Positions 12,952-61,358 of a stretch of DNA of 64,000 bases are shown one piece after another (the first letter of the stretch is position 1; each line of letters starts with the position of its first letter). The notes under the pieces were generated by a model. The model saw nothing but the letters and a program-made list of their open reading frames with translations, searched no databases and had not been told where the DNA came from. The position numbers and the translations under genes are program-made. The stretch is from Umezawaea beigongshangensis (GTDB lineage Bacteria > Actinomycetota > Actinomycetes > Mycobacteriales > Pseudonocardiaceae): assembly GCF_016464305.1 (NCBI RefSeq), contig NZ_JAEIOJ010000002.1:620001-684000 (forward strand). Reading direction: 5' to 3'.

Positions 12952-13020
12952 GTGCCGGGCCCGGCACCACCACCGGCTCCACCGGCGCCCGTGCCGTCGC
13001 GTCGCCGCGACGGCACGGGC
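12952..13020. terminator. Bidirectional terminator region between tnaA and cvnD
   Basis: Two GC-rich elements. The first is a perfect 16-bp palindrome GTGCCGGGCCCGGCAC (12952-12967). The second is a perfect 15-bp stem beginning GCCCGTGCCG (12987-13001 with 13006-13020) around the loop TCGC. It separates convergent operons, so it can serve both strands. Confidence 0.8.
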
Positions 13021-13028
13021 GGGTGTCG

Positions 13029-20485: not shown

Positions 20486-20968
20486 CTGATCCGTTCGCAA
20501 GGTCCTCGTCGTGATCCCGGTGCGTCGCGTCCGCGGAGCGCGCGCCGCGGGTCCTGGCGCCTCCGGGCACGCGGAGGCGAGCCGGGAGAGCTCCCACGTC
20601 GTCGCGCGCGAATCGGTCGTCCCGGCCCGTCAGCGGCGCAAGCATGCGCCACCGGCCGGTGCGAGACGAGGGTTGTCGCGAGTCGTTGCCCGAACAGGCA
20701 GGACCTCGGCGACAGGTGACACGGACCTGTTGACAGGTGGGGAGAGGATGCGTATTGCGCCGTTCGCGCCATCGCGGTGACGACCCCCACAGCACGCGGG
20801 GGCAGGGGACGCGCGGCGCTGTGCCCGCTTCACGCGGATGGCGCTGGACGTTCCGGGGAACGTCCAGCGCCATCCGCGCCGTTCTCCTGCTGCGAGTCCG
20901 GTGCACGTCGTCGACGTGGCGCCGGCGCGCGTTCGCACGCGCTTCGCGCAGCGCGCGTCGGCGACGCG
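20486..20968. other. Intergenic region between alr and the small lipoprotein gene
   Basis: About 480 bp with no convincing protein gene. It holds the alr promoter region and a 22-bp inverted repeat (20833-20878). A short direct motif, GACAGGTG, occurs twice near 20711-20740. Confidence 0.4.
20833..20878 (-). terminator. 22-bp perfect inverted repeat, probable terminator of the small lipoprotein transcript
   Basis: Arms 20833-20854 and 20857-20878 (left arm begins CGCGGATGGCGCTGG) are fully complementary with a 2-base centre. Read on the minus strand, it lies 90 bases after the 25-residue lipoprotein gene. The arms contain a GGACGTTCC-like core. Confidence 0.65.
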
Positions 20969-57882: not shown

Positions 57883-60120
57883 TCAGCGGAGCACGTCGGC
57901 ACCGTCGCTGAGCGGGGAGAACGCCGTGCGGTCGTCGGTCAGCAGGGACAGCCGCGCGCCACCGATGTCGAAGTACAGGCCCAGCACCTTCAGCCGACCC
58001 TCCCGCACCGCCGTGCGCACCACCGGCAGCCGCTCCAGGGCGGCGACCTGCACGGCCACGTTCACCATCGACAGCTGGTCGGCCTCGCTGCTCCCCTCCG
58101 GCGCGGCGGGGTGCCCGGCGCGCAGGGCGGCCAGGCTCGGCACCCCGGCCTCCAGCCACCGGCCCAGCGGGTCGTCACCGCCAGCCGCTCCGGCCAGCAG
58201 CGCCTGCATCGCGCCGCAGCCGGAGTGACCGCACACCACCAGCGCCGGGACCCGCAGCACGTCCACCGCGTAGTGCACCGACGCCTCGACGCCGTCGTCG
58301 CCGTGCGGGGCGAGGTTGCCCACGTTGCGCACGGTGAACAGGTCCCCCGGCCCGCTGCTGGTGATCACGTTGGGCACCACGCGGGAGTCGGCGCAGGTCA
58401 GGAACAGCGCGTGCGGTTCCTGCGACCCGCTCAACCCCTCGAACACCGGCCGCAGCAGCGGCGCCGACCTCCGGTGGTACTCCTGCACACCGGACACCAG
58501 GGGACGCGCCGCTTCGTCGTGCTCGCCGTGGCGCTGCTCGGGCAGGGAGCCCTGCCAGGACGACCACGGCCCGAACCACCGGGGCGGCACGAGCCGCGGA
58601 TCGCGGTGCGACATGCCGCTGCCGATGCCCGACACCTCGTCCACGTGCACCGGACCGCCACCGCGCTCGTGCTGCTCGCGCCACGTCGACAGGTGCTCGA
58701 ACGCGGTGTGGTCGAGGAAGTCCACGACGAGTTCGACGTCGACCGGTGCGCCGTCGGGAATCCTGGCCAGCACCCGCGACAGGCGCGGGACGGACAGGAA
58801 GCTCAGCGTTCCCTCGACCACGACCGTCCAGTGCTCCGGTGCCCCGGACTGCGGCGTGGGCCGCGCGGTGACCTTCGCCCACACCACGCGGCGGACCATC
58901 AGCGCGACCGAGAGGACGAGACCGATGACGACTCCCGTGAGCAGGTCGAGGAACACGACGCAGAGAACGGTCACCAGGTAGACGGGCAGCTCGGAGTGCC
59001 GGTGCGCGGTGCGCACGTCGACCGGCTTGACGAGCTTGAGGCCGACGTGGACCAGCAGTCCGGCGAGCGCCGCCATCGGCACCTGCTCGATCAGCGCCAC
59101 GAGCAGCAGGGAGAACAGCAGCACCCACACGGCGTGCAGGACCGCCGAGGCCCTGGTGCGCGCACCGGAGGCGACGTTGGTGGAGCTGCGCACGATGACC
59201 CCGGTGACGGGCAGGCCGCCGAGCAGACCGGACAGGGTGTTGGCAGCGCCCTGTCCGACCAGCTCGCGGTCCAGGTCGGCGCGCTTGCCGCTGCCGCTGA
59301 GCTTGTCCACCGCGACGGCCGACAGCAGGCTCTCCACGCTGGCGATGACCGTCATGGTGAACACGGCCAGCGCGAGCGCGCCCCACCGGCCGTCGGGCAG
59401 CGCCGGGAGCTGGACGGAGTCCAGCAGCGAGCCGGGCAGCTCCACCCGGTCGACGTTCCAGGAGAGCGCCGAGCTGAGCGCGGTGACGCCGACGACCGCG
59501 ACCAGCGAGGCCGGGACGCGCCGCACGAGCTTCGGCAGCAGCGGCCAGACGAGCAGGACGGCCAGCACGAGCAGGCCGACCACGGCGGCGGGGGTGTGCA
59601 CGCCGAGGAGCTGCGCGGGCAGCTCGACCACGTTCTCCAGCGCCCCGGTGCCCGGACTGCCGCCCAGCAGCACGTGGAGCTGGGCGAGCGCGATGGTGAT
59701 GCCGATGCCCGCCAGCATCCCGTGCACGACGGCGGGTGAGATGGCGAGCGCCACGCGCGCGACCCGGCTGAGCCCGAGGACGATCTGGAGCAGACCCGCC
59801 ACGACGGTGACGGCGCAGGTGACGGCCCAGCCGAACTGGTCGACGAAGCCCGCCACGACGACGGTGAGACCAGCGGCGGGACCGCTGACCTGCAACGAGG
59901 AGCCGCCGAGCACCCCGGCGACGATTCCGCCGACGACGGCGGCGATGAGCCCGGCGGTAACCGGGGCGTCGGAGGCGATGGCGATGCCGAGCGAGAGCGG
60001 CACGGCGACGAGGAACACGACCAGCGACGCGGGCAGGTCGTGCCGCAGATCTTCTCGGGCCCACCGGCGCGCGGCCCGGAGGGGCGACGGCCGGTTCGTG
60101 GGCGCAGGACGTGCGTCCAA
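57883..60120 (-). CDS. SulP anion transporter fused to beta-carbonic anhydrase
   Basis: A 745-residue fusion. The SulP/SLC26 transporter domain (about 25-420) includes LPASLVVFLVAVPLSLGIAIASDAPV and VSGPAAGLTVVVAG. It is followed by a degenerate STAS-like region (about 425-520). A beta-carbonic anhydrase domain (about 540-745) has the zinc ligands Cys-Asp in FLTCADSRVVP (about 575) and His-Cys in VVCGHSGCGAMQ (about 631). It should import bicarbonate (or sulphate) and equilibrate it with CO2 inside the cell. The start is TTG at 60120, backed by GGAGGA 5 bases upstream. Mycobacteria carry the same fusion. Confidence 0.93.
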   Translation of the reverse strand: MDARPAPTNRPSPLRAARRWAREDLRHDLPASLVVFLVAVPLSLGIAIASDAPVTAGLIAAVVGGIVAGVLGGSSLQVSGPAAGLTVVVAGFVDQFGWAVTCAVTVVAGLLQIVLGLSRVARVALAISPAVVHGMLAGIGITIALAQLHVLLGGSPGTGALENVVELPAQLLGVHTPAAVVGLLVLAVLLVWPLLPKLVRRVPASLVAVVGVTALSSALSWNVDRVELPGSLLDSVQLPALPDGRWGALALAVFTMTVIASVESLLSAVAVDKLSGSGKRADLDRELVGQGAANTLSGLLGGLPVTGVIVRSSTNVASGARTRASAVLHAVWVLLFSLLLVALIEQVPMAALAGLLVHVGLKLVKPVDVRTAHRHSELPVYLVTVLCVVFLDLLTGVVIGLVLSVALMVRRVVWAKVTARPTPQSGAPEHWTVVVEGTLSFLSVPRLSRVLARIPDGAPVDVELVVDFLDHTAFEHLSTWREQHERGGGPVHVDEVSGIGSGMSHRDPRLVPPRWFGPWSSWQGSLPEQRHGEHDEAARPLVSGVQEYHRRSAPLLRPVFEGLSGSQEPHALFLTCADSRVVPNVITSSGPGDLFTVRNVGNLAPHGDDGVEASVHYAVDVLRVPALVVCGHSGCGAMQALLAGAAGGDDPLGRWLEAGVPSLAALRAGHPAAPEGSSEADQLSMVNVAVQVAALERLPVVRTAVREGRLKVLGLYFDIGGARLSLLTDDRTAFSPLSDGADVLR

Positions 60121-60600
60121 GGGGGTCCTCCACGACTGCTGCGGGTGAATCGGACGGTGCAGCGGAGAACGCGCGGCGGTGCGCGCGACGCCCGCACTGG
60201 CGCCGATTCCGCGTACGACGGCCCCAACGACCGATATGTCCGGTTGGTTTCCCCACAGAGCGTATCCGTGCGATTGCTCACAGTCGATCGGCCACAGTGG
60301 ACCCCACCCGAAGGTGTGCGCTACGTGCCCCCCGGACAGCGGTCGCGCACGCTGTCGCACCCCCCGCACGACGAACGCTCCACCCGCGCGGGTGATCGCG
60401 GACCGGGTGATCACGTTCCCGGCCACCGCACGTGTCCGGACACGGACGAGCCCCGGTCGAGAGCCGGTCGGGTCGTGCGACGAACAGCGGGGCGCGCACG
60501 TGCGGCCCACCACCCGCCCAGCGCCTCGTCGGCACCCCGCCGAGCTCCTCCGCGGTGGACGGAGCCGAGCCGGTTCGACCGCGCGGGAGCCTGGTACCTA
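60121..60600. other. Divergent promoter region (SulP-CA gene and membrane-protein gene)
   Basis: About 480 bp with no gene supported. It carries both promoters. A run reading CCGATATGTCCGG occurs near 60228. The striking element is the palindrome at its right end, listed separately. Confidence 0.4.
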
Positions 60601-60604
60601 ATGT
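60574..60604 (+). promoter_or_regulatory. Promoter candidate of the DUF2269-like gene
   Basis: TTCGAC (60574-60579), 19 bases, then TAATGT (60599-60604). The -10 box overlaps the left end of the 38-bp palindrome. Confidence 0.45.
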
Positions 60605-60638
60605 GTAGGCGTGCTACACATGTAGTACGCCTACACAT
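60601..60638. promoter_or_regulatory. 38-bp double palindrome (operator)
   Basis: The whole element is self-complementary except at two symmetric pairs. Outer arms are ATGTGTAGGCGT (60601-60612) and ACGCCTACACAT (60627-60638). It also resolves into two 15-bp palindromes, TGTAGGCGTGCTACA (60604-60618) and TGTAGTACGCCTACA (60621-60635), each TGTAG-N5-CTACA. It ends one base before the GGAGGA ribosome site of the next gene. Confidence 0.85.
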
Positions 60639-60647
60639 GGAGGACCC

Positions 60648-61358
60648 GTGGTGGCACGCAGATCCAGACACCTTCTGGTGTGGTTGCACGTGGTGACGTC
60701 GGTGGGCTGGGGCAGTCAGGCGGCGGCGCTGTTCGCGCTGGTGCAGTTCGGCTTCCGGATCGGCGACACCGCGGCGTTCGCCCTCGCGGAGCTGGTGGAC
60801 GTGCAGGTGCTCCAGTTCTGCGCGACCACCTCGGCGTTCAGCGGGATCGCGCTGTCCGCCCTCACGCCGTGGGGCTTCTTCCGGCACTGGTGGGTGCTCG
60901 CGAAGTTCGCGATCACGACCTCGCAGCTGTACGCGGGGATCTTCCTGCTCAGCCCGCGCCTCGGGGACGCCGCCGAGGGCGGCCCGCCGTCACCGGCGCT
61001 GCGGGTCGGGTCGCTGCTGATGGCCTCGGCCATCGCCTTCCAGGCGTGGTTGTCGACGGCCAAACCGGGACGGCGCACGCCGTGGGCACGCCACGACCGG
61101 CAGCCGGTCGCCTCCACTCGCGCGTTCGCGTTCTGCACGGCGGTCCCCGCGGCCGACCTGCTGCTCGGCGAGTTCGTGCTGGGACGGTCGATCCCGGTGC
61201 TGTCGCTGCTGGTCGCCGTCGGCCTGCCGGTGATCGGAGCGGTGCGGAGCAGGAGGTCGCGCGGCTCCGGCCGCCCGGCTCACCCGACCGGCTCGGCCTC
61301 GTTCAGGTCCTCCACCCGCACCGGGCGACGCCGGTCGAACGCCACGCCCAGACCGTAG
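60648..61358 (+). CDS. DUF2269-like integral membrane protein
   Basis: A 236-residue protein with five to six hydrophobic helices. It begins RHLLVWLHVVTSVGWGSQAAALFALVQF, where the His in the first helix followed by SxGW resembles DUF2269/CopD-like membrane proteins. The rest includes FRHWWVLAKFAITTSQLYAGIFLL. The last 40 residues are Arg-rich and overlap the convergent gene by 79 bases, probably without function. The start is GTG 60648 or GTG 60651; GGAGGA lies just upstream. It sits directly behind the 38-bp palindrome and is probably tightly repressed. Confidence 0.75.
   Translation: MVARRSRHLLVWLHVVTSVGWGSQAAALFALVQFGFRIGDTAAFALAELVDVQVLQFCATTSAFSGIALSALTPWGFFRHWWVLAKFAITTSQLYAGIFLLSPRLGDAAEGGPPSPALRVGSLLMASAIAFQAWLSTAKPGRRTPWARHDRQPVASTRAFAFCTAVPAADLLLGEFVLGRSIPVLSLLVAVGLPVIGAVRSRRSRGSGRPAHPTGSASFRSSTRTGRRRSNATPRP

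Follow-up and report, generated by a model that had tools for sequence, protein, structure and literature searches.

A 38-bp palindrome in the genome of Umezawaea beigongshangensis is very probably the double operator of an unlinked, autoregulated repressor of the PadR family, the orthologue encoded at C44:422563-422874. The palindrome lies directly before a gene for a predicted membrane protein in the window, by which we mean the whole stretch of 64,000 nucleotides that was analysed. As judged by sequence comparison, its recognition unit, GTAG-N5-CTAC, is kept in many relatives at three places: the promoter of this membrane-protein gene, the start of padR, and the region before a divergent cydA gene. 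An earlier note on the window had read the palindrome as a very strong operator whose regulator must be encoded elsewhere. The operator reading gains from the fact that other genera carry the unit, singly or as a pair, and that it recurs at further promoters. The missing regulator can now be given a specific candidate, a PadR gene on another contig.

The symmetry described in that note holds on recounting. In the 38-bp palindrome, 17 of 19 pairs are complementary, and a repeat search returns two arms of 18 nt each (60601-60618 and 60621-60638) that are 94% complementary. The element also splits into two TGTAG-N5-CTACA dyads with centres 17 bp apart: TGTAGGCGTGCTACA at 60604-60618 and TGTAGTACGCCTACA at 60621-60635. 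When the two are compared on opposite strands, 14 of 15 positions are identical. Exact TGTAG-N5-CTACA occurs twice in the 64-kb window, both times inside the element. A genome-wide search for this sequence had been suggested as a way to define the regulon; among the matches listed, in which exact ones rank first, the same two dyads are the sole exact ones.

How much weight can the symmetry bear? Of 30 windows simulated with a first-order Markov model, one contained a 38-bp palindrome of 17 pairs, and the real window holds three with at least 17 pairs (starting at 12985, 20837 and 60601). Because of these two counts, the symmetry by itself is moderate evidence for an operator; it is the conservation of the sequence that makes the evidence strong. 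The other two palindromes of the window (12985-13022 and 20837-20874) are GC-rich and near-perfect, reach 17 and 18 pairs and look hairpin-like; perhaps they are terminators.

At its right end the element stops at 60638 and abuts GGAGGA, as the earlier note had it in saying that the element reaches the ribosome site; three nucleotides separate GGAGGA from the GTG start codon. The overlap with a -10 box claimed in the same place fared less well. A consensus scan of 60400-60800 gave no sigma-70-like promoter, and the hexamer TAATGT, which would overlap the left end of the element, was picked out by eye only. The same scan found no terminator at the element. Table 1 lists the features. On the other side of the element, a gene for a fusion of a sulfate permease (SulP) with a carbonic anhydrase (57883-60513, minus strand) is divergent from the membrane-protein gene.

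Table 1. Features of the 38-bp element and its surroundings (window coordinates)
Feature	Position	Strand	Basis
Double operator (predicted), whole palindrome ATGTGTAG...CTACACAT	60601..60638		Repeat search; architecture kept at orthologous promoters
Putative PadR-type box 1, GTAGGCGTGCTAC (GTAG-N5-CTAC)	60605..60617		Motif search
Putative PadR-type box 2, GTAGTACGCCTAC	60622..60634		Motif search
Central dyad CTACACATGTAG, containing TACANNTGTA	60614..60625		Sole exact CTACANNTGTAG of the genome
Possible -10 element TAATGT	60599..60604	+	By eye; missed by consensus scan
Ribosome-binding site GGAGGA	60639..60644	+	By eye
Candidate target gene for a DUF2269-like protein, predicted to be a helical membrane protein	60648..61358	+	ORF, orthologues, model

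The gene behind the element has 236 codons. The earlier note called it DUF2269-like, and a weak likeness stands, by way of a sister protein that scores 10.3 bits against DUF2269, for which the gathering score is 28; a likeness to UPF0093 falls below the cut-off in the same way. Membership of the family does not stand: the product itself matches no Pfam family, DUF2269 (PF10027) included, up to E 0.1. We keep 'DUF2269-like' as a label for the gene and its orthologues. With 60651-61256 as the query stretch, matches were found in 30 of 60 genomes searched, the genome of the window counted, and 80 relative loci of up to 12.6 kb were collected. His13, Trp20, Trp81, Lys85, Gln92 and an AKP motif are among the positions invariant in 38 sequences of the family. 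An AlphaFold model of the product is a confident helical bundle (pLDDT 93). A fold search with the model gave no significant match (best Foldseek E 0.39). Subunits of cytochrome bd are among the better-covered structural matches, aligning over 154-165 residues with Z 9.0-10.2, although for helical bundles such values may mean little, and no decisive fold emerged.

Conservation of the box was assessed in the 70 bp before each DUF2269-like gene of 81 promoters (the window and the 80 relative loci), with eight control dyads for comparison. Exact GTAG-N5-CTAC is present in 36 of the 81, and in 39 with at most one mismatch; the control dyads were never found exactly (0/81) and with one mismatch in at most 10. 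By type, 19 promoters carry a double box, 20 a single box and 42 none. When up to three mismatches are allowed, 18 of the 80 relatives have a double box spaced at 15 bp before the gene. The doubles belong to Saccharothrix, Umezawaea, Nonomuraea and Thermocatellispora, in addition to the window. The singles belong to Lentzea and to a strain labelled Nocardia sp. NRRL S-836, which falls among Lentzea. Amycolatopsis, Saccharopolyspora, Kutzneria and others lack the box before their DUF2269-like genes. Within the relative loci, exact boxes are confined to the DUF2269-like promoter. On the gene tree the promoter types need four changes, as against 33.9 with shuffled labels, and the window falls in a set of 14 rows (support 99/80), 13 of them double. 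Inside the double-box clade, Actinosynnema has kept padR and lacks the box at both the DUF2269-like gene and padR.

Sequence outside the boxes is kept as well. In doubles, A stands at -4 in 16 of 17 and T at +31 in 15 of 17, and the ATGT...ACAT ends of the window's element agree with these conserved flanks. Its spacing is unusual: 17 bp, where nearly all relatives have 15 bp, and for this reason cooperativity may differ from that in the relatives. Only one other genome of a class-wide sample has the 17-bp spacing, before a gene for an ABC transporter ATPase (L227, G765:C33:65458-65487). In doubles of the Saccharothrix type, TACTAT, a plausible -10 element seen by eye, lies inside the operator. 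We also noticed by eye an element resembling CAGGG-N4/5-CCCGATGTG that recurs, in many of the loci L014-L020 and L069-L117, some 40-90 bp ahead of the DUF2269-like gene. It occurs before box-less orthologues, before the single-box genes of Lentzea and in padR-cydA intergenic regions, and is perhaps a second regulatory or promoter motif.

A search for double boxes across the family gave matches in 52 of 390 genomes, a count that alone proves nothing, as a reversed control pattern also matches many genomes by chance. The neighbours of the matches are more telling. Thirty loci were analysed from two genus groups, g22 and g16, which we took as Saccharothrix and Amycolatopsis; the assignment of g16 follows from its cydA start, which matches that of named Amycolatopsis loci (L196, L197, L199). 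In the former, 13 of 14 double boxes have the HWWVL signature of the DUF2269-like gene within 300 bp; in the latter, 15 of 16 have a padR signature on one side and a cydA signature on the other. The exceptions are one place in each group without the expected neighbours. A third group, g8, taken as Lentzea, has 12 matches, and all six that were inspected are likewise flanked by padR and cydA. In two g5 genomes the neighbours of the box are a padR signature and a gene of the DUF2306 type (L167 was tested with Pfam). At three places in g16 (L169, L170 and L172, the last of which is the same place as L137) the double box stands before small genes whose products have, by eye, starts like those of secreted proteins; the L172 product is DUF4440-like, below the Pfam cut-off. 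These small genes are possible further targets of the same regulator.

The class-wide sample gave a match in 12 of 394 genomes, the genome of the window included, with 13 further places in the other 11. A padR signature stands beside 10 of these 13 places, which lie outside the family, a cydA signature beside nine, and both beside seven. The arrangement of Amycolatopsis and Lentzea recurs in Streptosporangiaceae: there too a padR-family gene stands on one side of the double box and, on the other, a divergent cydA, which encodes a subunit of cytochrome bd. Pfam searches on examples returned PadR for L161, L222, L231 and the Amycolatopsis query, and Cyt_bd_oxida_I for L161, L140 and L219. In two genomes of another family of the order (L219 and L220) the double box stands before cydA with no padR signature adjoining.

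Which protein of the window's genome would bind the element? The genome has one close orthologue of the Amycolatopsis PadR query, G000:C44:422563-422874, which is 76% identical to it; seven other PadR-like genes (E up to 0.001) are at most 40% identical. The candidate belongs to the PadR family (PF03551) with 77.7 bits against a cut-off of 27 (E 7e-22), and its best sequence relatives of solved structure are PadR proteins. It is about 113 amino acids long and has tyrosines in HGY26 and GTVY48, features that place it in the PadR-2 subfamily.

Two observations point to this gene. The first is a dyad in the regulator's own promoter, as would be predicted for a PadR operator. Directly before the padR start codon, GTAG-N5-CTAC stands in a single register with at most one mismatch in 20 of 31 promoters, that of this genome included; the background is 31 of 8060 positions, some of them real boxes. 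Of the 11 promoters without a box in that register, nine carry one at another place within 260 bp, again with no more than one mismatch; the remaining two, L193 and L198, have none within that distance. The box at this genome's own padR, GTAGACTTCCTGC, has one mismatch and is weak there. In this box TAGACT or TAGAGT may be a plain -10 element; if so, the GTAG half would be partly explained by the promoter, but not the CTAC half.

The second observation is co-occurrence. Among 41 genomes searched, a padR match (E up to 1e-20) was found in all 18 with the box and in 13 of 23 without it, and the 10 genomes with no padR match all lack the box at the DUF2269-like gene. The one-sided p value of 0.001 treats the genomes as unrelated and so ignores kinship. 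This distribution would be expected if the box served PadR. Since 13 box-less genomes also have a padR match, the DUF2269-like gene is not always in the PadR regulon.

Is padR only a neighbour of the box, and the true ligand some other regulator, such as a PadR paralogue or a TetR, MarR or other winged-helix protein with a similar dyad code? Short dyads are used by many regulator families, and the genome has the seven further PadR-like genes, one of which (L154, in the region G000:C22:221736-221993) has paired dyads of its own at 15 bp. We nevertheless consider this improbable. In the 300 bp upstream of each of the seven paralogues there is no exact or one-mismatch GTAG-N5-CTAC, all having at least two mismatches, whereas orthologues of the C44 gene carry the box at the start codon. 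The L154 dyads, CTAGAACTACTAT and CTAGTACATCTAG at -84 and -69 from the match start (CTAG-N5-CTAT/CTAG), have the same architecture as the 38-bp element with a different half-site.

Quite improbable, too, is a repressor of the BlaI/MecI/CopY family bound to the central dyad TACACATGTA (CTACA-NN-TGTAG), with the outer halves secondary. This dyad matches TACANNTGTA exactly, which we take to be the cop-box/BlaI (CopY/BlaI-like) core, and in L219 and L220 a BlaI-type gene and a gene for a peptidase-like protein of the M48/M56 type stand ahead of the box-bearing cydA (Penicillinase_R and M48 by Pfam in L219). The BlaI-type gene in those genomes, however, is itself preceded by CTAC-N5-GTAG, the opposite dyad (by eye). 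At 15-bp spacing the sister promoters lack the two extra bases and read CTAC/T-NN-GTAG, and the Lentzea promoter has no central dyad. In the window's genome, which is 97.1% complete so that a BlaI-family gene could be missed, the only match to PF03965 is partial (25.1 bits, cut-off 22.6) and falls in a protein of the MarR family (PF01047, 60.1 bits). That the palindrome forms an RNA hairpin in the leader, for translation control or attenuation, is scarcely credible: a long near-perfect inverted repeat does adjoin the ribosome site, but the box outlasts the long stem in relatives (the Lentzea promoter holds a single 13-bp dyad, and self-complementarity is only partial in several doubles), GTAG-N5-CTAC occurs also at other promoters and between divergent genes, and the terminator scan at the site was negative.

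How far, then, would the regulon of the favoured PadR candidate extend in this genome? The single cydA match here has no box with up to two mismatches in the 400 bp before the gene, and for this reason the predicted regulon is limited to padR and the DUF2269-like gene. Besides the two boxes at the latter's promoter, the genome holds three exact copies of GTAG-N5-CTAC, which we left out of the regulon; each looks like another regulator's dyad. One (L174:2678), the dyad GTAGGAGTCCTAC, is flanked by a MarR-family gene and a protoglobin gene. Another (L176:2549), AGAGGTAGATCATCTACCTCT, stands before an Rrf2-family regulator gene that is followed by a flavohaemoglobin-like gene, and looks like an Rrf2 (NsrR-like) operator. 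At the third (L175:2549) ACAAGTAGCTTGTC occurs twice in a short stretch, there and about 33 bp further on, the apparent operator of another regulator. Further 15-bp double boxes with up to three mismatches number 38 in the genome, as against 170 for the reversed control, and the best has two mismatches.

The simplest model for the PadR candidate, we infer, is repression by occlusion, relieved by a signal. One PadR dimer would bind each 13-bp dyad through GTAG and CTAC; with their centres 9 bp apart, each half-site would receive one winged helix, and the two helices would enter adjacent major grooves. A pair of adjoining dimers would cover the transcription start up to the ribosome site, and the membrane-protein gene would be repressed. 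Two cooperating dimers, and with them the 'very strong' binding that the earlier note had foreseen, are plausible. A ligand or respiratory signal would release PadR and thereby lift the repression of padR too, as well as that of cydAB in other genera. That the signal is a respiratory or membrane one is suggested by the autoregulation and by the padR-cydA arrangement in relatives. We put forward, as a tentative conjecture, that in filamentous actinomycetes this PadR senses haem or respiratory status. Cytochrome bd and the conserved helical-bundle membrane protein would then share a regulon, the latter perhaps handling haem or quinol as a partner of the oxidase, and spacing (15 or 17 bp) and box number would tune repression between genera.

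These results tie an orphan palindrome to a specific candidate regulator gene, which makes the proposal directly testable. They point to a small regulon common to Pseudonocardiaceae and Streptosporangiaceae that comprises a PadR repressor, cytochrome bd oxidase and a family of uncharacterised membrane proteins. They also suggest a recognition rule, read from the operators of several species, GTAG-N5-CTAC, usually paired at 15 bp, which may help to assign PadR sites elsewhere.

How does the proposed system compare with those already described? VanR of Corynebacterium glutamicum, reportedly a PadR-like repressor that controls genes for vanillate use, is likewise actinobacterial and differs in these targets. 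Operators of the BlaI/MecI/CopY type share the core at the palindrome centre, but the genome has no real BlaI-family gene and the sister promoters lack the core. In one relative examined here (L163) padR is followed by a HAAS-domain gene, and HAAS and DUF1700 are presumably one family. LltR and LstR of Listeria are described, in the accessible text, as PadR repressors that control their own genes along with operons for membrane proteins, with partners of the DUF1700 type (PMC6624303). The likeness lies in the autoregulation and in the control of uncharacterised membrane proteins; the difference lies in the organism and in the cytochrome bd link, which that text does not describe (PMC6624303).

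The PadR-2 repressor LftR of Listeria monocytogenes has, in the available part of its report, tyrosines Y28 and Y48 and an operator, palindromic in part, within the promoter of its own gene (PMC6457526). The candidate described here resembles it in its length of about 110 residues, its PadR winged helix, its two conserved tyrosines (Y26 and Y48 in the C44 protein) and the operator in its own promoter. LftR, on the same partial account, acts on a drug pump, whereas the double dyad described here belongs to a membrane-protein gene not linked to padR and, among relatives, also to cydA (PMC6457526). In the open-access literature, outside which most subscription papers lie, we found no description of an actinobacterial cydA or DUF2269-like gene under the control of a PadR protein. 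PadR-2 repressors with palindromic operators in their own promoters, and PadR repressors of membrane-protein operons that control their own genes, were already known; what is new here is an operator and a regulon proposed for a PadR-type repressor.
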